A stretch of DNA of 61,100 nucleotides from Lachnospiraceae bacterium (GTDB taxonomy: Bacteria; Bacillota; Clostridia; Lachnospirales; Lachnospiraceae), in contig JAGPFR010000012.1 in assembly GCA_018056425.1 (NCBI GenBank), forward strand, positions 1 to 61,100, in the 5' to 3' direction. The position numbers and the translations under genes were made by a program. The notes below the pieces were generated by a model. It saw nothing but the letters and a program-made list of their open reading frames with translations, ran no database searches and was not told the DNA's origin. Positions 10,429-21,962 of the stretch are shown in pieces (the stretch's first letter is position 1; every line of letters starts with the position of its first letter).

Positions 10429-10946
10429 TGGATAATAAAAACATTAAATCCGTGATCGCTGTCGGAGTGATCATTCTCTTAGCAGTCTTATGTATATGCA
10501 TATTTGTAAACAGATCTTACACGGGCGAAACCGTCTACGATTATACTGAAACTCAGATTTCGGAGCAGACCCCGGAGCTGGAAGCCTACGGCGAGATAAG
10601 CACGGAGCAGATAGAAGCCGGCGCGGTGGAAGGACCTGAGGGCTTTACCGTAGATGAAGAGGAACCTGAAGAACCCTGTGTTTATGTATTCAGAAACGAA
10701 AAGCTTCTGAACGAGCATTATGAGAAGCACGGAATAGAAATGGGATTTGCTTCCGCGGAAGAGTATCAGGCAGCGGCATCTGCGGTAATAACAAATCCTG
10801 ATTCATTATTCAAGACCGAAGCAGATGACGGTGACGGGGTATATTACCTTGAAGAAACGAATGAATTCGTAATACTGTCAACCGATGGATATATCAGAAC
10901 GTATTTCCTTCCAAGCTCCGGAAGAGCATACTTCGACAGACAGTAA
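10428..10946 (+). CDS. Membrane-anchored protein with toxin-like (BECR-type) C-terminal domain
   Basis: 172 residues: a short basic head, one membrane helix (residues 9-27), an acidic Glu/Pro-rich linker (~30-83), and a compact C-terminal domain from residue ~84. That domain (FRNEKLLNEHYEKHGIEMGF, then a NPDSLF step, GVYYLEETNEFVILS and DGYIRTYFLP) resembles a small nuclease-like module found at the ends of bacterial polymorphic toxins (barnase/EndoU/colicin/RelE-type fold), with matching His and Arg/Tyr positions. Topology puts it outside the cell. No immunity gene is visible next to it, so a housekeeping surface role is also possible. The resemblance is from memory of the family and needs a profile search. 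Confidence 0.55.
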   Translation: MDNKNIKSVIAVGVIILLAVLCICIFVNRSYTGETVYDYTETQISEQTPELEAYGEISTEQIEAGAVEGPEGFTVDEEEPEEPCVYVFRNEKLLNEHYEKHGIEMGFASAEEYQAAASAVITNPDSLFKTEADDGDGVYYLEETNEFVILSTDGYIRTYFLPSSGRAYFDRQ

Positions 10947-10983
10947 GATGACACGGGGACGTTTCCCCGTGTCATCTTTTTTT
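10947..10983 (+). terminator. Strong terminator hairpin with GGGGACGTTTC core
   Basis: A perfect 13-bp stem, GATGACACGGGGA / TCCCCGTGTCATC (10947-10959 and 10964-10976), has a CGTT loop and is followed by a seven-T run. It starts directly after the stop codon. The core GGGGACGTTTC also occurs in the long hairpin at 35419-35488. Confidence 0.92.
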
Positions 10984-11065
10984 ATCCTTTAAAGATTTTT
11001 TAAGAAATGACTTGTTACTATAACATCACAGTCGGGAATAAGTTTTGAAAATGATGAGGTAAAAA

Positions 11066-11860
11066 ATGGCAAATATTTGTTTGGAAGCTAAGGATCTGTG
11101 CAAGACATACATAGTTGACGGATTCAGCAATAACGTTCTTCAGAATATTAATCTTAAGATCGAAGAAGGAGAGTTTGTCTCGATAATGGGACCCAGCGGA
11201 TCGGGTAAATCGACTCTGCTTTATACGATAAGCGGAATGGATAACATGACTGCGGGAAAAGTTATCTTCGACGGTGAAGATCTTTCGGGGATGAATGATA
11301 AGCAGCTTACGAAAATGAGACTTCTCAAGATGGGTTTTATTTTCCAGCAGATGTATATGATGAAAAAACTCAGCATCATGGATAACATAGTACTTCCCGG
11401 TTATCAGGCAGGAATTGTCTCAAGGGATGAAGTCAATAAGAAGGCTGAAGACCTGATGAGAAGACTCGGTATCATCGAAACGGCAGGAAGAGAGATTACG
11501 GAAGTATCCGGAGGACAGCTTCAGAGAGCGTGCCTTGCAAGGGCACTTATCAACAGCCCCAAGGTTCTCTTTGCGGATGAGCCCACAGGTGCTCTGAATT
11601 CCAAAGCATCGATGGAAGTCCTCTCAGAGATGGTCAAAGCAAATGAACTCGGAACCACAGTACTGATGGTAACTCACAGCGAGAGAGTCGCGGCAAGTTC
11701 GGACAGAATCATATATCTGATGGACGGAGACATTCAGGGCGAACTTTTACTGGGTAAGATTCATCCTTCGGAAAATAATACGGATAATAAGAGCACTTCA
11801 GAGATTCTCCAGATAAGGGAAAGAAAACTCAGAAAATGGCTTGAAGAGATGGGGTGGTAA
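11066..11860 (+). CDS. ABC transporter ATP-binding protein (MacB/BceA-type)
   Basis: 264 residues. All ATPase motifs are present: Walker A GPSGSGKSTLL, Q-loop FIFQQMYMM, signature VSGGQLQRACLARAL, Walker B VLFADEPTGALN and the switch His in MVTHSE. The type matches ATPases that drive FtsX-domain permeases (MacB, LolD, BceA), which move or strip lipophilic compounds and peptides at the membrane. The C-terminus carries an extra ~35-residue basic tail. The permease gene starts at the stop codon, and a hydrolase lipoprotein, response regulator and histidine kinase follow in the same direction. I read the set as a stimulus-controlled defence or export operon. Confidence 0.92.
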   Translation: MANICLEAKDLCKTYIVDGFSNNVLQNINLKIEEGEFVSIMGPSGSGKSTLLYTISGMDNMTAGKVIFDGEDLSGMNDKQLTKMRLLKMGFIFQQMYMMKKLSIMDNIVLPGYQAGIVSRDEVNKKAEDLMRRLGIIETAGREITEVSGGQLQRACLARALINSPKVLFADEPTGALNSKASMEVLSEMVKANELGTTVLMVTHSERVAASSDRIIYLMDGDIQGELLLGKIHPSENNTDNKSTSEILQIRERKLRKWLEEMGW

Positions 11861-11861
11861 A

Positions 11862-14327
11862 TTGTATTTCAGAATGCTTAAAAGAGATATTAAAGATAAG
11901 GTTGCATTAAATATAGTACTTTGCATCTTCATGATGGTAGCTGCAACTCTTATAGTTGTAAGCATAGGATTTGTATATACATTCCTCGGTGGTATAGAGC
12001 GCACTTATGAAAAGTGTAATACATCGGACTTTATCTTCCTTACGGATAAAAGTATATCCATGGATGAAGAGCAGAACAGTATAATAACTGATCTTCTTCG
12101 CTCATATCCGAATATCGGGGATATAAATATATCGGAAAGAGTGTACCTTAGCACTTCCAGACTGGAATTTGATGGCATCGATAAAAGAAGTGTAACCAAT
12201 CTATACAATTCTTCTTTTATGATGGCACCGGTAAGCAGACTTCAGAATATTCCCTATGACCTTAACAATGAACTGTTCACTCTCGAAAGCGGCTGCATAG
12301 CTCTTCCTGAGGTGATGGCTCATAATGCCGGAAGTCATATCGGAGATAAAATAAGACTTACCACGGATATGGGAAATATCTATGAATTTACCGTTTCGTA
12401 TATTTTCAAAGATCCCAGTTCATCGATGATAAATAAGATCCTTTTTGCGGATGAAGATCTTGAAGTGCTTAAAGATGAATTTACCAAGACCATGTATCTT
12501 TATGAGGTTACACTTGTAAATCCTTTTTCATCTGTCGGTGAACTTCAGAACTGGGGATGGGATATACATGATGAACTTAAGAGATATTCCAATGAAGGTA
12601 TCATTACCGGCGGAGTCTATGAGATAACTACCGGCAAGAGCAATACCTTCACCGATGATGCAATGATGGCACTTATCGTAAGTATCTTTATGTGCCTTAT
12701 GGGAATAGCTTCCATCATTTTGATCTTTATGTGTATTTCTTTTACCCTTCATGCGACCGTAAAGCGGGAGGAAAAAGAAATCGGAACGATGAAAGCTATA
12801 GGTGTTGACTCCCTGTCATATAAAATGCTGTTCATTGTAAAATACATTGCATTTGCAATAATCGGAGGTATCGTCGGATTAGTAGCCGGAATACCTCTCA
12901 GCGAAGTGTTTGTCAGCAAATTTGTAGTAAATACTTTAAATCCCGACAGAAGTGTCATGATTATACTCGGACTTGCCGGAAGTGCTCTTTTCATTCTTCT
13001 GATGCTGGCGTTTTCTTTGATATCTCTCAGACGAATGAAGAAGATCTCCGTCATGGATGCGATACATGGTGAAAATAGAGGTGAGAGATTCAGCCGTATC
13101 CCCGGAGTCTCGCTTAGCAAAATAAAGAGGATATCTCCTCCAACCTTTCTGGCACTTCAGGATATCGTTCGTAAGATAAAGAGATATATCTTCCTCGTCA
13201 TCAGCTATGCCATCGGAATGGCTATCGTACTTTTGGTATTCCAGGTAAAACGGACCGTTGTAAGTGATGATTACAGGAAGATGTATTGGTATCAGGCTGA
13301 AAGAGACGTAATGATAAGACCAGATGATGATCTTAGAAACAGTCTTCTTAACAGACTCGGAAGCGAGAAGAATCTGTATCTGTATTATGAGAAATACTAT
13401 AACGAGAACGGTATCCCTCTTGATATTCAGATTATGGATATAGGAGAGGCATATCTGATAAACGGAGATGACAAGGTCGTTTCCGTTATAGCATTCGGAG
13501 ATTATGACATAAGCAGGATGGTTATCATAGATGGCGGTCATGCGCCCAAACTTGCGAATGAAGTTGCTGTATCACATTTCCTTAAGGAATGGCTCGGAGT
13601 GGAACTCGGTGATGTGATCACACTTGAATATAAAGTGTATTTGGAAGACGGTTTTGGCACTGAAACTGTCAGAAATGATTTTGTGGTAACGGCTTATGTC
13701 GAAAGCCTCGGCGGTGCAAGATCACCTCTTTTCTTTACATGTATAAATGACGGAAGCATCGTTTCGACAAACTTCGATATTTTTAACGAAGAGATCGTAT
13801 GCAATGATGATGAATATGATGCATATATAGAGAAGATGCGTGCAGTTAACGAGGATATTCTTATCTGGGATTATGATCAGGTTCTCGATTACGATCTAGG
13901 AAACACCTTCGGAAGACTGCTTGATTTCCTGGCACTTTCCATCGGTATCATCCTGACTGTAACACTTTTCTCAATGTCATTTTTATATCAGCAGATCTTT
14001 ATTGAGGAAGAAGCATCCGATATTGCAATGCTTAAGAGCATGGGATTTGACAAAAAGAGTATCAGAAAGTGGCATTTTGTCAGGTTTATTCTCCTGATAG
14101 TTATAGCTGCTGCTTTGGCGATCATCATTTCCATGACTGTCAGCAAGATAACATTTGAAGCGATTGGATGCGCGGCACTCGGAGTTGCTAATTTCGATAT
14201 CGCATCTCCTCCTCTTGCAGCGACTGTTCTTTTGCCTGCAGGGCTCGCAGCAATCGTATCTCTTGTTATGGCTGCGTCATTTGGTGCGATGGATCAGATC
14301 AGAATATGGAGGATCCGTAATGAATAA
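11862..14327 (+). CDS. ABC transporter permease, FtsX-type (821 aa)
   Basis: I chose TTG 11862 because GGGGTGGT lies four bases upstream, overlapping the stop of the ATPase gene; ATG 11874 is the alternative. About eight membrane helices: residues ~13-40, then groups of three near 275-400, one near 455-475, and three at the C-terminus. Two FtsX domains flank a large extracellular region (~40-270 and ~480-680). The order fits MacB/BceB-like mechanotransmitter permeases, which couple ATP use to extracellular work on a substrate. The stop overlaps the start of the downstream lipoprotein by eight bases. Confidence 0.88.
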   Translation: MYFRMLKRDIKDKVALNIVLCIFMMVAATLIVVSIGFVYTFLGGIERTYEKCNTSDFIFLTDKSISMDEEQNSIITDLLRSYPNIGDINISERVYLSTSRLEFDGIDKRSVTNLYNSSFMMAPVSRLQNIPYDLNNELFTLESGCIALPEVMAHNAGSHIGDKIRLTTDMGNIYEFTVSYIFKDPSSSMINKILFADEDLEVLKDEFTKTMYLYEVTLVNPFSSVGELQNWGWDIHDELKRYSNEGIITGGVYEITTGKSNTFTDDAMMALIVSIFMCLMGIASIILIFMCISFTLHATVKREEKEIGTMKAIGVDSLSYKMLFIVKYIAFAIIGGIVGLVAGIPLSEVFVSKFVVNTLNPDRSVMIILGLAGSALFILLMLAFSLISLRRMKKISVMDAIHGENRGERFSRIPGVSLSKIKRISPPTFLALQDIVRKIKRYIFLVISYAIGMAIVLLVFQVKRTVVSDDYRKMYWYQAERDVMIRPDDDLRNSLLNRLGSEKNLYLYYEKYYNENGIPLDIQIMDIGEAYLINGDDKVVSVIAFGDYDISRMVIIDGGHAPKLANEVAVSHFLKEWLGVELGDVITLEYKVYLEDGFGTETVRNDFVVTAYVESLGGARSPLFFTCINDGSIVSTNFDIFNEEIVCNDDEYDAYIEKMRAVNEDILIWDYDQVLDYDLGNTFGRLLDFLALSIGIILTVTLFSMSFLYQQIFIEEEASDIAMLKSMGFDKKSIRKWHFVRFILLIVIAAALAIIISMTVSKITFEAIGCAALGVANFDIASPPLAATVLLPAGLAAIVSLVMAASFGAMDQIRIWRIRNE

Positions 14328-15714
14328 GTTTAAGAAAAGAATATCCCTCCTGTGTGCCGGAGCAATGATGATAAGTCTGTGCGGGTGTTCATCACAAGCC
14401 GTAACGTCAACCGGGCTTGTAAAGGTGGGCTCATTAAATGTTGAGACAGCTCCCGGATATACAGATGAAAGCCCTGCCGAAACAGAGACAGGTTCTTGGA
14501 CTTCCGAAGACGGGCTTTGTACGATCAGGCAGTTCTCCACATATTATGATGTAACACTTGATTACGAAAACGGAAGCCCTGCTGAGGTCGGTGCTGCATA
14601 TGCAAAGACCATTCTTCAGGCAGTTCCTGATTATGAAACGCTTTTTGAGCCCTACCTTTTTGAGAATATCAGCTGCCTGTTCGGTGGACGTGAGATTAAT
14701 TACGAAGCTCTTGAAAAGAGGATAACTACTCTTGAATCATCAATACGCGATGAATACAAAGAGGAGATCGAAAGCTTTGCAAGAACGATCTCCGCAGGCG
14801 AGGAGGGATTTTCGGAAAACGGAAAACTCAGCTATATTGAAGCAATATCCATGCAGATGATTCCGGACGCATTAAGAGCAACCGCCTGCAGCGCACTTTC
14901 CGTCGGAGGGTCACATACTGAAAGCGGACACAGGATTTCTCTCAGAAATCTCGAATGGAATCTCGGAAGTACTTCTCAGATGACACTTCTCCATTCGGTT
15001 GCACACATGAAAAAAGGGGACAGATCTCTGACATCGATTGCCATGCTAGGTCTTCTCGATATGATCACTTCCGTTAATGATGACGGAGTTTTGATAGGCA
15101 TTCTTGATGTCGGCACCGTAAACCACATGGAGTTTGTCTATGAAGAGAAAAAATGTTATACATATGAAATAAGATATGCACTTGAGCAGTTTGACAATGC
15201 GAAGGATGCGGCTGAATTTCTTTCATCGGAAAGCGGAGATTTCACCTGGTGTAACAACCTTCTTGTATCGGATGATGAATCGGCTTTTTGCTGCGAAAAT
15301 CCCACAAGAGAAGTGGTGGAAGCCGGAAGAGCAATTCCGGTTATCAGGGATGCGGATACGGAACTGATGGAAGGGCTTGTATGGGATACTCCCGATGTTC
15401 TCTGCATTGTGAATTCTTTTGCCACTGTGGGTAATCAGGACGGCTTTACCGGAAATCTCGGAGAAACAAACCGTTTTACGAAGTATAATAACTGGGTAAA
15501 AGAAATCGGGATGTTTTCCGTAGCCGATATGAAAGGTATAATGGCAAGAGAGGTTGTGGACCAGTATGAAGTGGTAAATGTCCACAACAGCGGAACTGTT
15601 CACACCGTAATAGTTGATTATGCTACAGGTAATATTCACGTGGCATTCACATACGGAAAATGTGCCGATGATGTTCCCGAATATGTACTCGTAGGCAATT
15701 ACGGAGATAAATGA
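14320..15714 (+). CDS. Lipoprotein Ntn-hydrolase, C45/penicillin acylase-like
   Basis: 464 residues. ATG 14320 follows GGAGG and overlaps the permease stop. The signal ends in LCGC with Cys23 as lipidation site, so the enzyme should sit on the outer face of the membrane. After a ~165-residue helical region comes RATACSALSVGGSHTESG with Cys190, followed by RISLRNLEWN. This matches the catalytic start of choloylglycine hydrolase/C45 acyltransferase-type Ntn hydrolases: a nucleophilic Cys, then conserved Arg-Asn and Asp/Glu-Trp. Such enzymes cut amide bonds in acylated compounds (penicillin V, bile salts, N-acyl amino acids, peptides). Unusually, the nucleophile is far from the N-terminus, so autoprocessing would be required if it is a true N-terminal nucleophile. 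Its place between permease and two-component genes suggests it acts on the transporter substrate. Confidence 0.72.
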   Translation: MNKFKKRISLLCAGAMMISLCGCSSQAVTSTGLVKVGSLNVETAPGYTDESPAETETGSWTSEDGLCTIRQFSTYYDVTLDYENGSPAEVGAAYAKTILQAVPDYETLFEPYLFENISCLFGGREINYEALEKRITTLESSIRDEYKEEIESFARTISAGEEGFSENGKLSYIEAISMQMIPDALRATACSALSVGGSHTESGHRISLRNLEWNLGSTSQMTLLHSVAHMKKGDRSLTSIAMLGLLDMITSVNDDGVLIGILDVGTVNHMEFVYEEKKCYTYEIRYALEQFDNAKDAAEFLSSESGDFTWCNNLLVSDDESAFCCENPTREVVEAGRAIPVIRDADTELMEGLVWDTPDVLCIVNSFATVGNQDGFTGNLGETNRFTKYNNWVKEIGMFSVADMKGIMAREVVDQYEVVNVHNSGTVHTVIVDYATGNIHVAFTYGKCADDVPEYVLVGNYGDK

Positions 15715-15715
15715 T

Positions 15716-16396
15716 ATGACAGATATTCTCGTGATCGAGGATAACGAAGAGCTCGGACAGCTTATCACGGATTTTCTTAAACGCGAAGGATATTCCGTGG
15801 CGTGGGAAAAGAATGCGGAAGGCGGATTGGAACTGGTCAATGAAGCAGCATTTAAGATGCTGCTTCTTGACGTTATGCTTCCGGGTATGAACGGATATGA
15901 AGCACTTCAGGAAATCAGAAGGAACCAGAAACTCCCGGTTCTTATGATGAGCGCGAAGACGGATGAACAGAGCAAGGTTCTAGGCTTTGAAGTAGGTGCT
16001 GACGATTATATCGACAAGCCGTTTTCTTTTAAGGTACTCGGACTTAAGATCAAAGCATTGATGAAGCGTACCTACGATCTTACTGAGGACAGACAGCTTC
16101 TTACATATGAGAATATCACCCTTGATGTTGCGACAAAGACTGTTTACAAGGATGATAAGCCTGTTTCTGTAACAGGTAAAGAATACGAACTCCTCGAGTA
16201 TATGATGAGACATCCGGAGCAGATTCTTAATAAAGACAAGCTCTTTAATGAAATCTGGGGAGTTGACTGTTTCAGCGATCTCGGAAGCCTTAATGTTCAT
16301 ATAAGATGGCTGAGAGAAAAACTTGAGGAAGATCCGAAGAATCCCAAACTGATCAAAACTGTCTGGAGAGTCGGATATCAGTTCGGAGGAAATTAA
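15716..16396 (+). CDS. Response regulator, OmpR family
   Basis: 226 residues. Receiver domain with acidic pair VIEDNE, phospho-acceptor Asp52 in MLLLDVMLPGMNG, Ser of MMSAKT and Lys of DKPFSF. The C-terminal winged helix (KEYELLEYMMRHPEQILNK ... IRWLREKLEE ... TVWRVGYQFGG) is the OmpR/PhoB DNA-binding domain. The gene follows the hydrolase stop by one base and precedes its histidine kinase by two, so all five genes from 11066 to 17751 look co-transcribed. Its target is likely the operon's own promoter. Confidence 0.95.
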   Translation: MTDILVIEDNEELGQLITDFLKREGYSVAWEKNAEGGLELVNEAAFKMLLLDVMLPGMNGYEALQEIRRNQKLPVLMMSAKTDEQSKVLGFEVGADDYIDKPFSFKVLGLKIKALMKRTYDLTEDRQLLTYENITLDVATKTVYKDDKPVSVTGKEYELLEYMMRHPEQILNKDKLFNEIWGVDCFSDLGSLNVHIRWLREKLEEDPKNPKLIKTVWRVGYQFGGN

Positions 16397-16398
16397 AA

Positions 16399-17751
16399 AT
16401 GAAGAGAGCCGGAAAAATATATATCATAACGGCCTCTTTGTTTGCATGTATTTTCCTGGCCGCAAATCTTCTTTTCGGTGTGTTTGGCAGTAAGCAGGAA
16501 GATGACATATATGTTTTGATGAACAGAGTTTTCAGCGAGGTGGAAGAAAACTGCAAAGCGTTCTCTGCTGACGAACTCTCGGAAGAGACGGTTACATCGG
16601 TCATCGAAGATGTCTATTATGCTCACACCGGTGATTATGCTTCGGAATACGGAGCTTTAAGTCTTCCCAAAAGAGTCTATTATATCCCTGCAGAGTTTTA
16701 CGACACCAATGTCACTCTTTTGAACAGAGATAAAGAATTTGAGAAAGTCTGGGTGCTTAGCCGTGACGGCAAGGTTCTTGGATTTGTGATATTTGAATTT
16801 GCGGAATCGGGATATGTAAGCCTTCACATAATGCTGAATATATCTATTGCGGCTTGCTTTGTGATAGCCCTTGCGATATGCATCTATATTAATTTGTATG
16901 TTCTGAGACCTTTCACCAAATTTGCTTCCTATCCCGAAAAGCTGTCCAAAAACCAGCTTACCGAAAAACTTCCCGAGACAAAGAACCGCTTATTCGGACG
17001 TTTCACCTGGGGAATCAATATGTTAAACGATAAGCTCGCAAGTGACAGGAAGAGGATAAACGAACTCAGCCGCGATCACCTGACAATGCTGACCACCATC
17101 GCACACGGGATCAAGACACCCGTGGCCAACATCAAGCTTTATGCCGATGCGATAGAAACCGGGCTTTACCAGCCTGAAGGCAAAGTGAATGAAAGCGATG
17201 CCGAGGTCGCTGCGAAGATCTCAAAAAATGCGGATGACATTACGGAGATTGTTAAGGAACTGATCGATAAAGCATCGGGCGGATTTGTTGATTTTGAACC
17301 CGAGATAAGTTCTTTCTATCTCACCGAACTGACGGATTTCCTAAGTGAAGAGTACGGAAAGAGACTCGATGTTCTCAGGATCCCATATAAGTTCGAAGTT
17401 GCGGATAATGCCATGATCAGGAGTGATAAGAACGGCCTGTGCCGTATTCTGTCACAGCTTATGGAAAATGCGATAAAGTACGGTAATGGTGAAGGCATCT
17501 TCGTTAACATCACAAAAGACGAAGAGGGATATTACATATCGGTCAGAAATAAAGGAAAGGTTCTTGATAAAAAAGAACTGCCATTTATATTCAACAGCTT
17601 CTGGAGAGGCTCGAATTCCGAAGGCATCGAGGGAAGTGGTATAGGCCTGTTTGAAAGCTTTGAGATCGCACGCAGGCTGGACGGGGAGATCTACGCCTGG
17701 GCTGATGCGGAAAAGGGTGAGATGGAGTTCGAAGTTTTCCTGAACTCTTGA
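16399..17751 (+). CDS. Sensor histidine kinase
   Basis: 450 residues with two membrane helices (~8-30 and ~145-168) around a ~115-residue extracellular sensor region. A HAMP-like segment follows, then HisKA with H-box TIAHGIKTPVANIK (His236), and a complete HATPase domain: N-box QLMENAIKYGNG and G-boxes GSGIGLFESFEIA. This is a functional kinase, unlike the hybrid sensor at 2203-4101. It does not look like the BceS intramembrane-sensing type, which has almost no extracellular loop. The stop TGA lies inside the -35 box of the tetR promoter. Confidence 0.93.
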   Translation: MKRAGKIYIITASLFACIFLAANLLFGVFGSKQEDDIYVLMNRVFSEVEENCKAFSADELSEETVTSVIEDVYYAHTGDYASEYGALSLPKRVYYIPAEFYDTNVTLLNRDKEFEKVWVLSRDGKVLGFVIFEFAESGYVSLHIMLNISIAACFVIALAICIYINLYVLRPFTKFASYPEKLSKNQLTEKLPETKNRLFGRFTWGINMLNDKLASDRKRINELSRDHLTMLTTIAHGIKTPVANIKLYADAIETGLYQPEGKVNESDAEVAAKISKNADDITEIVKELIDKASGGFVDFEPEISSFYLTELTDFLSEEYGKRLDVLRIPYKFEVADNAMIRSDKNGLCRILSQLMENAIKYGNGEGIFVNITKDEEGYYISVRNKGKVLDKKELPFIFNSFWRGSNSEGIEGSGIGLFESFEIARRLDGEIYAWADAEKGEMEFEVFLNS

Positions 17752-17816: not shown

Positions 17817-18431
17817 ATGAAAAAAGAAAATGAACACGGAACCAGAGAGAATCTGATCGAAGCGGCCAAGAAGGAGTTTCTTGAAAAGGGCTATAACAAA
17901 GCGTCGCTCAGAACCATCTGCGCAAATGCGGGTGTGACTACCGGTGCTTTGTATTTTTTCTTTGAAAACAAAGCCGACCTTTTTGCGGCAATAGTCGATC
18001 CTCCGCTTAAGGAACTCAAATCAATTCTCATCAAACATTTCTCGGACGATGCAGAGCACGTAAAAAATCTTACCTCTTTCGAAGAGGCCGATATGGATCA
18101 TAGCGACATCAGCAATCTGATCGTCGGACATATCTACAATTACTACGATAGTTTTATGCTCCTGCTTAATGCTTCCGAAAATACCGTGTATGAAAATGTC
18201 GTAGATGAATTCGTTGAAATGGTGGACAGATCCATTCCCGCGATGATGACACAAGTCAGGGGATATACCTATGACGAGAACATGTCCCACTGGATGGCAC
18301 ACATATCGATAGATGCATTCATTCATGTTATCCAGCATGAGAGGGATGTGGACAAAGCCAAAGAACGCCTCGGTAAAATCCTGAATTATCTGGTACTCGG
18401 CTGGGTGCAGCTGGCAATGGAAAAGAAATAA
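17817..18431 (+). CDS. TetR/AcrR-family transcriptional regulator
   Basis: 204 residues. ATG 17817 follows GGAG; an upstream in-frame ATG at 17781 lies within the operator and is unlikely. The N-terminal helix-turn-helix is typical: TRENLIEAAKKEFLEKGYNK ... RTICANAGVTTGALYFFFENK. The all-alpha C-terminal ligand pocket is not recognisable to a substrate. The gene has its own promoter with a palindromic operator, and a matching operator stands before the ABC transporter genes downstream. I infer a repressor that senses a compound handled by that transporter and controls itself and the transporter. Confidence 0.92.
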   Translation: MKKENEHGTRENLIEAAKKEFLEKGYNKASLRTICANAGVTTGALYFFFENKADLFAAIVDPPLKELKSILIKHFSDDAEHVKNLTSFEEADMDHSDISNLIVGHIYNYYDSFMLLLNASENTVYENVVDEFVEMVDRSIPAMMTQVRGYTYDENMSHWMAHISIDAFIHVIQHERDVDKAKERLGKILNYLVLGWVQLAMEKK

Positions 18432-18443
18432 GTATTCAAATAA

Positions 18444-18482
18444 CCGCTTCGCAAAAGGGAATCTTCCTTTTTGTTGAAGCGG
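18444..18482 (+). other. Intergenic hairpin between tetR and the ABC operon
   Basis: CCGCTTC (18444-18450) pairs with GAAGCGG (18476-18482), and inside it AAAAGGGAA can pair with TTCCTTTTT. An A-run, not a T-run, follows on the plus strand, so it is not a standard terminator for tetR. It could slow or partly end read-through into the ABC genes, or stabilise mRNA ends. Confidence 0.45.
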
Positions 18483-18487
18483 AAAAA

Positions 18488-18513
18488 AATAACATTTACA
18501 TAACATTGTTATG
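18488..18513 (+). promoter_or_regulatory. TetR-family operator upstream of the ABC operon
   Basis: The core CATAACATTGTTATG at 18499-18513 is a perfect inverted repeat of 7-base arms around one central base. It matches the right half of the tetR operator (TAACAATGTTATC) at nearly every position. AATAAC at 18488-18493 mirrors the left half of that operator. A possible promoter, TTGAAG (18474) with a 17-base spacer to TACATA, would overlap this site. Confidence 0.7.
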
Positions 18514-18534
18514 TTGAAAGAGAGGGAACGATAA

Positions 18535-19236
18535 ATGTATCTTGAGATCAAAGATGTGAAGAAAAGCTATGGCACGGGCGGAAGTTATGTTCAGGTTCTG
18601 AAAGGCGTTAATACGGGTGTCGAGAAAGGACAGATGTGTGTCATTCAGGGCACATCGGGATCCGGCAAATCAACGCTTTTAAACTGCATAGGCGGTCTTG
18701 ATTTCATGGATTCGGGTTCCATTAAAGTAGACGGAACCGAAGTTTTCGGTATGAAGAACAAAGCACTTTCCGATTACAGAAGGGACAATCTCGGTTTTAT
18801 TTTCCAGTTTTATAATCTGGTTCCTAACCTTACGGTAAAAGAAAACATTCAGGTCTGCGAATATCTCACCAAAGATCCTCTTGATATGGATGAGCTTCTT
18901 GACGTGCTGGGTCTGACCGAACATCAGAATAAATTCCCCGCACAGCTTTCCGGCGGTCAGCAGCAAAGATGCGCTATAGCCAGGGCTCTGATCAAGAATC
19001 CGAAGCTTCTGTTATGCGATGAACCCACCGGTGCACTTGATTCAAATACATCAAGAGATATCCTTGTTCTCCTCGAAGAGATCAATGCAAAGTATGGTAC
19101 TACGATGCTGATCGTAACTCACAATAACTCGATCAAGAACATGGTTCACAAAGTAATATTCCTCAAGGACGGAATCGTTAAGAAAGAATACCTTAACGAA
19201 ACAAGAGTACCCGCAAGCGAATTGGAGGATCTGTAA
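18535..19236 (+). CDS. ABC transporter ATP-binding protein (LolD/MacB-type)
   Basis: 233 residues with Walker A GTSGSGKSTLL, Q-loop FIFQFYNLVP, signature LSGGQQQRCAIARAL, Walker B LLLCDEPTGALD and switch His in IVTHNN. It is the partner of the FtsX-type permease, whose start codon shares one base with this stop (TAATG). The SD is GAGAGGG. The operator just upstream ties it to the TetR regulator. Substrate unknown; the class handles lipophilic drugs, peptides and lipoproteins. Confidence 0.93.
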   Translation: MYLEIKDVKKSYGTGGSYVQVLKGVNTGVEKGQMCVIQGTSGSGKSTLLNCIGGLDFMDSGSIKVDGTEVFGMKNKALSDYRRDNLGFIFQFYNLVPNLTVKENIQVCEYLTKDPLDMDELLDVLGLTEHQNKFPAQLSGGQQQRCAIARALIKNPKLLLCDEPTGALDSNTSRDILVLLEEINAKYGTTMLIVTHNNSIKNMVHKVIFLKDGIVKKEYLNETRVPASELEDL

Positions 19237-21962
19237 TGAACAGAATTTTGAGGAAAAGATTTCCGAGACAGATAAAGGCGGATTTCTTCAGACTGGGAAG
19301 CCTCTTTCTGATGATAGCCCTTTGTATGTATATAGTTATTGCTCTGGTTGATGCGGCGGAAGTTATCATCACCGGAACCGAGAAGAATCAGATCGAAACC
19401 CATATCGAGGACGGACAGTTTACTGTATTTAATGCATTATCCCGGGCTCAGTTAGATGAGATAGAAAACGCAGGGGTTACGATCGAGCCCCACATCAGTT
19501 ATGACATGACGTTGGATGACGGTTCTGTTATCCGAGTGTTTGAAAACAGAACTCTGATCGATACCGTGGTCCTTGACATCGGAAGAGAGGCATCTTTCGC
19601 TAATGAGATCGTTCTTGAAAAGAGATATTGTGAAGAACATGACATCAGTGTCGGAAGTGTGCTCCTGATCGGGGGCGAGGAAATAACCGTTACCGGGATC
19701 GGAAGCTCCGTAGATTATGATGCACCTTTGAAAAAGCTCTCCGATACCGCGGTTGACAGCACTGTTTTCGGAACAGGATTTGTATCTGCGGAAGGATACG
19801 ATCATTTAAAAAGCATTGCAAAGACAAGCACTGAAGATCTGACATATGCTTTCATCCTGAACGGTGTTATGAGCTCCGATGATCTGAAACAGATGATAAG
19901 GAATTTTGAATTTGATTACAGATCCGTTGACGATCCTTATTATCTGGAACTCCTCGAAGATACATATGGCAAAAAAGATGAGATCCGTGACGGTATAAGC
20001 GAACTGGCGGACGGTGCGCGTGAGCTTAATGAAGGTGCTCGAGACCTTTATGACGGCGCGGGAGAACTTTATGACGGAGCAGGAGAACTTGAGGACGGCC
20101 TCGGACAGATCACAGAGGGAAGCGAAAAGTTATACGACGGAATAAAGAAGCTTAAGAAATCATTATCCGTTATTCCCGGTGCTTCAGACAGCGTAAAGCC
20201 GCTTGCGGAAGGAATGTCCGATCTTAACGATGCGGTTAACGAAGCATATGATGGAGCCGGAGAGCTGAGGGAAGGCGTGGGAGAGCTGTATGACGGCGCA
20301 GGTGAGCTCTATGACGGAACCGGTGAGCTTTATGACGGAGTGCTGGAATTGCAGGAAAGATCGGATGAACTCTTAGATGAGATCTTCAGCACTTCCCCCG
20401 ACAATCTGATCTCATTTCTTTTAAAGGAAGATAATCTCAGAATCGGAGGCGCTGCAGGCGATATCGAGATCAATAAAACCGTAGGACTTGTGGACGGGAT
20501 CGTTGTAATCATTCTTTTCACATATGTGCTTTCCGTGTTTGTGATCAATCAGATCAGAGAGGAAAGTTCTACGATCGGTGCACTTTACGCACTCGGCGTT
20601 AAGAAAAATGATCTTCTTAAACACTATATCTTCATGCCTACGATAATTTCGCTTCTCGGCGGAAGTATCGGTGCGGCTGTAGGGCTTAGCGGACTTGGAA
20701 GCAGCTGGCAGATGTCTGATTCCTACAACTACTACTCCATACCCGCATTCGGCAAAGTAATCCCTGCATATCTGATCGTCTATGCCGTAGTGATGCCGCC
20801 TGTCGTCAGCATAATCGTCAACTACCTTGTTATCAATAAGAATCTCTCGAGAACCGCCCTTTCACTTATCAGGAACGAGCAGAAGGTTTCGAAGAGTAAA
20901 GATATTGCACTTCCGAACATGCCTTTTATAAGGAAATTCAGGATAAGACAGATGCTTCGTGAAAGACGTGCCGTTCTGACCGTTATCCTGGGAATGGCGA
21001 TATCACTTATGATATTTATGATGGGACTTAACTGCTACGTCCTGTGTAAGCACATCGGAGAGTATTCGAGCAGGGATACGCGCTACGCTTACATGTACAG
21101 TTTTAAATATCCGCCGAAAGAAGTTCCCGAAGGCGGAGAGGCATGCTTTGTTACATCTCTTCAGAAAGAAAGTAACGGATATACTCTCGATGTTACGGTT
21201 ATGGGTATAGATGATGATAACCCGTATATAGATGTTGCAACCGTTTCAGGTAAAAACAGGTTCGTTATTTCAGATGCCGTTGCAGCTAAGTACGGAGTTT
21301 CGATCGGAGATAAACTTATCCTTACGGATAATGCGGAGGATATGGATTATGCTTTCACTGTTGAGGACATTGTTCCTTACACCGTGGGCCTTACCGTGTT
21401 CATGGATATAGACAGTATGAGAGAACTGTTCGGAGAATCTGATGATTATTACAACGTGGTCATGTCGGATCATGCACTCGATATCGAGGAGGGAAGACTT
21501 TATTCGGTAACCACCAAGAGGGACATCGATAAAGCCTCCGGAGTGTTTGTGGAACTGATGGCGCCTGTCTTTACTCTTTTGATAGGAATGAGCACCGTTA
21601 TCTTCTGCCTTGTAATGTACCTGATGACTTCCGTTATGATAGACAAGGCCTCGTTCGGAATCTCACTTATGAAGATATTCGGCTTTAATAAAAAGGAGGT
21701 AAAAAAGCTTTACCTTGACGGGAATAAAACAGTTATCGCAATCGGCGCACTTGTCGCAATTCCTCTAGCCAAGATCATTACCGATAAGATGTTTCCCATG
21801 TTTGTGGCAAATGTTGCCTGCGGACTTCCGCTGAAGTTCGAGTGGTACTACTACATTGCAATATATGCAGCGATCATAATATTCTATAATCTGGTAAGCG
21901 TGATCCTTACCGGCGAACTCAGCCGTATGACACCTGCGGAAGTTCTTAAGAACAGAGAATAG
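19236..21962 (+). CDS. ABC transporter permease, FtsX-type with Gly-rich heptad-repeat insert
   Basis: 908 residues. One N-terminal helix (~22-43) is followed by a ~210-residue extracellular domain, then a long repeat region (~252-385), then a first set of three FtsX helices (~420-525), a second extracellular domain, and a second set of helices (~760-900). The insert consists of seven-residue units of the form A-G-E-L-Y-D-G, split by a non-repeated stretch. Such Gly-containing heptads are known in YhgE/Pip and MmpL-like proteins and are expected to form an extended extracellular helical stalk. The DNA of the insert is also repetitive. Co-operonic with the ATPase and probably controlled by the TetR regulator. 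Confidence 0.88.
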   Translation: MNRILRKRFPRQIKADFFRLGSLFLMIALCMYIVIALVDAAEVIITGTEKNQIETHIEDGQFTVFNALSRAQLDEIENAGVTIEPHISYDMTLDDGSVIRVFENRTLIDTVVLDIGREASFANEIVLEKRYCEEHDISVGSVLLIGGEEITVTGIGSSVDYDAPLKKLSDTAVDSTVFGTGFVSAEGYDHLKSIAKTSTEDLTYAFILNGVMSSDDLKQMIRNFEFDYRSVDDPYYLELLEDTYGKKDEIRDGISELADGARELNEGARDLYDGAGELYDGAGELEDGLGQITEGSEKLYDGIKKLKKSLSVIPGASDSVKPLAEGMSDLNDAVNEAYDGAGELREGVGELYDGAGELYDGTGELYDGVLELQERSDELLDEIFSTSPDNLISFLLKEDNLRIGGAAGDIEINKTVGLVDGIVVIILFTYVLSVFVINQIREESSTIGALYALGVKKNDLLKHYIFMPTIISLLGGSIGAAVGLSGLGSSWQMSDSYNYYSIPAFGKVIPAYLIVYAVVMPPVVSIIVNYLVINKNLSRTALSLIRNEQKVSKSKDIALPNMPFIRKFRIRQMLRERRAVLTVILGMAISLMIFMMGLNCYVLCKHIGEYSSRDTRYAYMYSFKYPPKEVPEGGEACFVTSLQKESNGYTLDVTVMGIDDDNPYIDVATVSGKNRFVISDAVAAKYGVSIGDKLILTDNAEDMDYAFTVEDIVPYTVGLTVFMDIDSMRELFGESDDYYNVVMSDHALDIEEGRLYSVTTKRDIDKASGVFVELMAPVFTLLIGMSTVIFCLVMYLMTSVMIDKASFGISLMKIFGFNKKEVKKLYLDGNKTVIAIGALVAIPLAKIITDKMFPMFVANVACGLPLKFEWYYYIAIYAAIIIFYNLVSVILTGELSRMTPAEVLKNRE
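19990..20370 (+). repeat. Coding 21-base direct repeats in the permease
   Basis: Two clusters of degenerate 21-base units lie at about 19996-20155 and 20245-20350. A representative unit is GCGGGAGAACTTTATGACGG plus one base, encoding A-G-E-L-Y-D-G. Unit copies differ mostly at third positions. Such arrays can shrink or grow by recombination, so repeat number may vary between strains. Confidence 0.75.

Follow-up and report, generated by a model that had tools for sequence, protein, structure and literature searches.

The DNA analyzed here, a 61,100-nt stretch from a Lachnospiraceae bacterium (the window), carries a compact run of five genes on the forward strand. The first (11066..11860) encodes an ABC ATPase of the MacB/LolD/BceA kind (ABC_tran, 1.1e-33) in which a Walker A motif (GPSGSGKS), SGGQ, and ADEPTGALN can be read and which has relatives in the PDB. 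It is followed by an FtsX-type permease (11862..14327; FtsX, 1e-13, in two stretches), a C45-family Ntn-hydrolase lipoprotein (14320..15714) with a lipobox cysteine, Cys23, and a predicted nucleophile, Cys190, an OmpR/PhoB-type response regulator (15716..16396; Response_reg, 9e-27; Trans_reg_C, 4.9e-26), and a sensor histidine kinase (16399..17751; HisKA, 1.7e-7; HATPase_c, 1.9e-15). Hydropathy predicts that the kinase has two helices, with a loop of ~120 residues outside the membrane (~122 over 14 kinases). The permease reading frame opens at a TTG at 11841, and the family profile match starts at a TTG at 11862; with the latter as start, successive genes are spaced by a 1-base gap, an 8-base overlap shared by the permease and lipoprotein genes, a 1-base gap, and a 2-base gap. 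The initial annotation had described this order, common direction, and tight spacing, and the ORF coordinates and domain searches bear it out. A terminator-like hairpin (10945..10978, forward strand; 15-pair stem and a T run) separates the upstream gene from the ATPase gene, a promoter/terminator scan found no terminator 3' of the kinase gene, and no tRNA was found in the window. Positions 17817-21962 hold a TetR regulator, an ABC ATPase, and a 908-aa FtsX permease whose outside part bears tandem ELYDGAGELYDG-type repeats (DNA repeats at 20001-20340); this trio also adjoins the C45 operon in L016, L017, L020, and L025.

The five-gene unit is real and conserved, and it is undescribed within the literature that we searched. 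Relatives were collected with two peptide patterns in titled genome records, a procedure biased toward close relatives, which yielded 91 C45 relatives, 80 of which were kept for locus counts. By record titles these 80 are mostly rumen and gut Lachnospiraceae and Oscillospiraceae, and Saccharofermentans, Acetivibrio, and two Treponema records are also among the C45 relatives. It had been proposed that the C45 lipoprotein should recur beside FtsX ABC genes, and this is what we found: the permease, in whole or in part, lies in the C45 gene chain at 79/80 loci, two pieces (L064 and L070) scoring <150 bits, and the sole miss, L060, is on a contig that starts inside the C45 gene. An ATPase is in the chain at 72/80 loci, separate regulator and kinase genes at 65/80, and all four partners at 61/80. 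At L094 a regulator lies in frame behind C45, which would raise the latter two counts to 66 and 62. Across the 80 loci the ABC and FtsX genes occur in two orders, and the two-component pair may stand on either side; a relative from another genus (38%) has the order FtsX-ABC-C45-RR-HK. Within the same genus or family, every locus of sufficient length (12/12) keeps the five genes in the order of the window, which argues that this order is beyond chance; the kinase of L019 is truncated by the contig end, and L028, a thirteenth contig, is a fragment.

Not every locus is complete. Among the 15/80 without a separate regulator or kinase gene are five at a contig end (L051, L077, L080, L083, and L105), L094, and nine others (L063, L065, L066, L070, L090, L095, L096, L099, and L103) that lack the genes despite at least 1.9 kb of downstream sequence. 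Four of these nine (L063, L090, L095, and L103) have <2 kb upstream, where some relatives hold the pair. The ATPase gene is missing at 8/80 loci, including L070 and L103 away from a contig end. No sixth shared gene emerged, since proteins unmatched by any of the five profiles form no cluster spanning more than 8/80 loci; the broadest, at 8 loci, resembles a reading frame on the strand opposite the regulator gene, and the next ones span 7. Several loci were odd in other ways. In Acetivibrio mesophilus (L078:6947-8367) the C45 frame is split in two, by pseudogene formation or sequencing error, and at L094:6947-9130 the C45 enzyme and response regulator share one 727-codon frame with the regulator at 503-726, a fusion that is odd for a surface lipoprotein and perhaps a sequencing error. 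At L106:9654-14300 a further ABC-FtsX pair lies next to the C45 operon and is followed by a beta-lactamase-family protein (PF00144) with a signal-like start, perhaps another ABC-plus-hydrolase pair. The module is also present in the two Treponema records (L073 and L082), which form long branches among Clostridia in the permease tree, suggesting either inter-phylum transfer or misbinned contigs.

The unit is rare. With the genome of the window counted each time, the C45 protein occurs in 14/143 relatives, in 2/295 genomes of an order sample, in 8/397 family genomes at E 0.001 (two of these weak partial matches), and in 1/299 phylum genomes at E 1e-20, the one being its own. A search of the taxonomic class for the C45 family matched 78/293 genomes. 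We inspected the best 30 places of that class search, 29 of them besides the locus of the window. Four of these (L141-L144) belong to the present clade, and in all four an FtsX gene with the orientation of C45 immediately precedes it; within 1.5 kb flanks, the other 25 C45 genes have no FtsX directly upstream in that direction, and L127 shows a weak FtsX match in convergent orientation (see L154).

The reciprocal search, with the permease profile, matched 57/200 family genomes at E 1e-30, a count that takes in the C45 type. The six matches >900 bits all fall at C45 loci, one of which (G407:C3) has merely the start of C45 on its contig. From the weaker matches we chose 20 loci; none has C45, and in 18/20 a regulator and a kinase are encoded no more than 6.5 kb away on the strand of the permease. 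Such enzyme-less FtsX-ABC-RR-HK modules (L188-L207) seem to be common across the family. When 93 permeases were placed in one tree, a single branch (SH-aLRT 100) divides the 73 C45-linked permeases from the 20 enzyme-less ones, and from this one-branch split it seems that a widespread FtsX-ABC-RR-HK core gained, or lost, the C45 enzyme once. Where records hold two copies of the unit, C45 and permease share their nearest relative in L085, L087, L086, L055, and L106; in L044, L042, and L096 the nearest relatives differ within the same group. Over 58 loci, distances of C45 correlate with those of the permease (0.952), kinase (0.924), regulator (0.894), and ATPase (0.856), and the permease's two outside domains (0.921 each) do not exceed its membrane part (0.939 and 0.919). 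We therefore rejected co-divergence as evidence of direct contact, since it is high for all partners and thus unspecific.

The enzyme is assigned to the C45 family by NCBIfam NF040521, which it matches at 89.7 bits against a cut-off of 85, whereas Pfam AAT scores 12.2 bits, under its cut-off of 23.2. The same contrast holds among 60 C45 sequences (the window plus 59 of 72 ORFs, near-copies having been dropped by eye): NF040521 matches 60/60 at E 0.001 and AAT 3/60 at E 0.01. In the family alignment Cys190 and Arg209 are invariant (81/81 rows), position 212 is Glu in 70/81 and Asp in 11/81, and Asn253 (80/81), Asn313 (78/81), and Arg385 (80/81) are nearly so. This Cys/Arg/acid/Asn set aligns with that of 14 other C45 proteins. 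Neither the enzyme (P0001) nor its profile (A2) matched the PDB by sequence, so the evidence for its fold is the predicted model. The model has an Ntn hydrolase fold with a cysteine as the would-be N-terminal residue, as had been foreseen for Cys190: the aligned range starts at model residue 190, opposite residue 143 of self-activated acid ceramidase, residue 126 of human NAAA, and residue 1 of the PvdQ and penicillin acylase chains, at 12-13% identity in the structure alignments. The nearest folds are acyl-side-chain and N-acyl-lipid amidases. In fold and nucleophile position the model resembles isopenicillin N acyltransferase, NAAA, and acid ceramidase; it differs from those C45/Ntn amidases in being a lipoprotein tied to an ABC operon, with Glu as the acid in most rows. 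The invariance of Cys190, the predicted Ntn fold, and the linkage to FtsX ABC genes support this part of the initial annotation, and none of the findings that would have refuted it turned up.

For the permease, family work used 56 sequences (the window plus 55/71, near-copies again dropped by eye). Family hydropathy (profile A3) predicts about 8 helices and two extracellular domains of ~230 residues each, at residues about 44-276 and 468-696. The structural model (pLDDT 82.7) has a YbbP-like fold: its top Foldseek match is YbbP (9ge6; E 6.7e-20). It also matches LolCDE, MacB, HrtB, and FtsX. In VIA-align, YbbP (Z 20.0, 655 residues, rmsd 6.7; 9ge6 aligned over 8-824) and BceB (Z 20.1, 494 residues, rmsd 10.4) tie. 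Among solved chains YtrF is closest in sequence (1.2e-13), with YbbP at just E 0.23, and the permease falls outside the curated YbbP family NF041854 (16.2 bits against 999). An ATPase, together with a permease built of four-helix units with a large extracellular domain after helix 1, places the pair among type VII (MacB-like) ABC systems.

Upstream of the first gene (10988..11009, forward strand) lies an 11-bp direct repeat, TTTAAAGATTT/TTTAAGAAATG, followed by an extended -10-like element, TGTTACTAT; the full repeat stretch reads TTTAAAGATTTTTTAAGAAATG, then TGTTACTAT. A promoter scan of the operon front found no sigma-70 -35/-10 pair. OmpR-type regulators bind direct repeats of this kind, and we propose this one as the putative site at which the response regulator encoded in the operon binds. 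At up to 3 mismatches the 2.56-Mb assembly contains this one site and no other (a reversed control gave 0; within the window, 1 site against 0.01 expected). Because it was found just there, the regulator seems, from sequence, to serve the C45 operon alone. Among the relatives, 36/80 carry the repeat in the orientation of the module and ahead of whichever transporter gene (ABC or FtsX) comes first, and it was not found at this threshold in the other 44/80. In 34/36 it lies within 124 bases of the called ORF, the exceptions being L056 (636 bases before) and L081 (713 bases). Where regulator and kinase come first (L072, L076, and L108), it sits between the kinase and ABC genes. Contig L032 has an extra copy at its end, on the opposite strand, and one match in 1.05 Mb came from the reversed control. 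A variant with up to 4 mismatches, scored without a reversed control, lies just upstream of the permease in 15/20 enzyme-less modules.

The initial annotation likened the operon to BceAB/BceRS modules, with which it shares an FtsX-type ABC pair, an OmpR regulator, and a kinase in one operon. This comparison fails on permease topology and kinase loop. In the parts of PMC12484072 consulted, BceB has ten helices, of which 7 and 8 flank its sole extracellular domain, and BceS has an extracellular loop of ~25 residues; two permease domains, about eight predicted helices, and a kinase loop of ~120 residues led us to reject a Bce-type module here. The nearest known systems are YbbAP-TesA, which joins an ABC machine to a lipid hydrolase, and the nsr operon, which combines a hydrolase, an ABC transporter, and a two-component system. 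The extracellular enzyme, which had been presented as an undescribed addition to such modules, thus has precedents in both as far as the consulted parts of those reports go; what stands of that claim is that the C45 enzyme class is new to them. Among the open-licence papers searched, no title or opening of an abstract describes a C45 enzyme combined with both an FtsX ABC pair and two-component genes, and PMC11279074 mentions neither NSR nor an acylase.

According to the sections of PMC12646458 available to us, type VII ABC systems power extracytoplasmic partners through mechanotransmission, and in YbbAP-TesA of Escherichia coli a periplasmic hydrolase is joined with an FtsX-type permease that is proposed to extract hydrophobic molecules from the membrane and hand them to the hydrolase. 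Judged from the same sections, the present operon shares with YbbAP-TesA a separate ATPase, a long FtsX-type permease with two extracellular domains, and an extracytoplasmic acyl hydrolase. Whereas TesA is an esterase/thioesterase, the partner here is a lipoprotein predicted to be an Ntn amidase; family hydropathy predicts about 8 helices for the C45-linked permease against 10 in YbbP, and the term two-component is absent from the YbbAP-TesA paper (PMC12646458). The nsr operon of Streptococcus agalactiae, as described in part of PMC4698656, sets NSR beside an ABC transporter and a two-component system, five genes in all, and confers full nisin resistance. Here, too, going by the genes alone, five genes supply a membrane-associated enzyme, an FtsX-type ABC pair, and a two-component pair. 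The excerpts consulted also mark the differences: NSR inactivates nisin through proteolysis, whereas the enzyme here is of the C45 kind, and NsrFP, a BceAB-type transporter, has one extracellular domain (PMC12484072), whereas the permease here is YbbP-like. The unit is accordingly a variant of known ABC-plus-hydrolase and resistance-operon kinds and not a new category.

Taken together, YbbAP-TesA, nsr, acid ceramidase, and a C45 lipoprotein encoded beside a megasynthase lead us to propose that the operon may be a self-contained, self-regulated detoxification unit against an N-acylated amphiphile, likely a fatty-acylated antimicrobial, a reading to which we give an even chance. The histidine kinase would detect the amphiphilic N-acylated compound or the resulting envelope stress, and the regulator would turn on the operon from its single dedicated promoter. 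The ATPase and two-domain permease would then work together as a type VII mechanotransmission machine, lifting the acylated compound from the membrane's outer face and offering it to the lipid-anchored C45 enzyme, which might dock on the permease. After shedding its own N-terminal propeptide, the enzyme would cut the acyl-amide bond with Cys190, and resistance may follow. In favor of detoxification count the linkage of C45, the split in the permease tree, the invariant Cys190 set, the YbbP-like permease, and the analogy to nsr, as well as the absence of a broad extra gene cluster and of any synthase recognized by the starts of the long ORFs in the 80 loci. Against it count the unspecific co-divergence, the tie between BceB and YbbP, the closer sequence match of the permease to YtrF, the repeat missed in 44/80 loci, and the loci lacking regulator and kinase genes. 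The enzyme may also be accessory, given that enzyme-less modules with a variant of the promoter repeat exist.

As to the substrate, one outgroup C45 lipoprotein (30% identity) adjoins a megasynthase with AMP-binding, condensation, and ketosynthase domains and an ABC exporter, which hints at acylated peptides. In two such loci (L148:1-9455 and L153:1-9535) the C45 lipoprotein gene is flanked on one side by an ABC exporter and on the other by a large synthase, the neighbors having been recognized by domain search in L148 and by ORF reading only in L153; these outgroup enzymes could be prodrug-type deacylases. For the operon of the window, beta-lactams, bile salts, or the cell's own lipid are possible substrates, bile salts being less likely because the relatives include Acetivibrio mesophilus and many rumen genomes.

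It is also conceivable, if unlikely, that the unit works by FtsEX-like control, in which the ABC machine transports nothing and switches the tethered C45 enzyme conformationally, with a component of the cell's own envelope as target. FtsEX and related type VII systems do regulate extracellular hydrolases, as stated in the accessible part of PMC12646458, and the tight linkage of enzyme and permease would fit such a switch. However, amidases acting on acyl side chains and N-acyl lipids, not cell-wall enzymes, are the nearest folds to the C45 model, and a rare and patchy distribution (14/143, 2/295, and 1/299) is unlike a housekeeping envelope function.

We think it rather improbable that the enzyme serves signal processing, with C45 trimming an acylated signal or drug, the kinase sensing the product, and the ABC pair acting as effector. 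The kinase does expose ~120 residues outside the membrane, its divergence tracks that of C45 (r 0.924), and the promoter repeat occurs in the genome only at the C45 operon. Yet the enzyme-less modules retain kinase and regulator (18/20) and a like repeat (15/20, at up to 4 mismatches), so that sensing need not involve C45, and C45 is found at some loci where no two-component genes are seen.

Maturation of a product of the cell itself, in which the ABC pair would export a precursor bearing an N-acyl group that C45 then strips off, as PvdQ deacylates a precursor in pyoverdine maturation, is very improbable: the outgroup C45 lipoproteins at two loci do adjoin a large synthase and an ABC exporter, but that exporter is of a different ABC type (ABC_membrane), extra gene families reach at most 8/80 loci, and none of the nine ORFs of at least 1000 aa in the 80 loci (flanks up to 7 kb) is synthase-like, judged by the starts of these long ORFs only.

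Returning to detoxification of an N-acylated amphiphile, a bolder form can be put forward tentatively, as possible but doubtful: the operon might encode the first ABC machine feeding an Ntn amidase, a two-component-induced type VII complex that draws N-acylated lipids or lipopeptides out of the membrane and delivers them to a tethered, self-processing C45 enzyme, one cassette having passed between Clostridia and Treponema. It would be a bacterial counterpart of saposin-assisted acid ceramidase, which, in the portion of PMC5915598 consulted, is thought to take ceramide at membranes with the help of saposin-D. If the proposed detoxification role is right, amide chemistry and inducible control would join the young ABC-plus-hydrolase class founded by YbbAP-TesA. 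With its single promoter site and fixed set of partners, the unit is directly testable, and a hunt for its substrate could reveal an unknown rumen lipopeptide. Gut and rumen bacteria would then face an acylated antimicrobial or lipid amide worth a dedicated sensor, machine, and enzyme.
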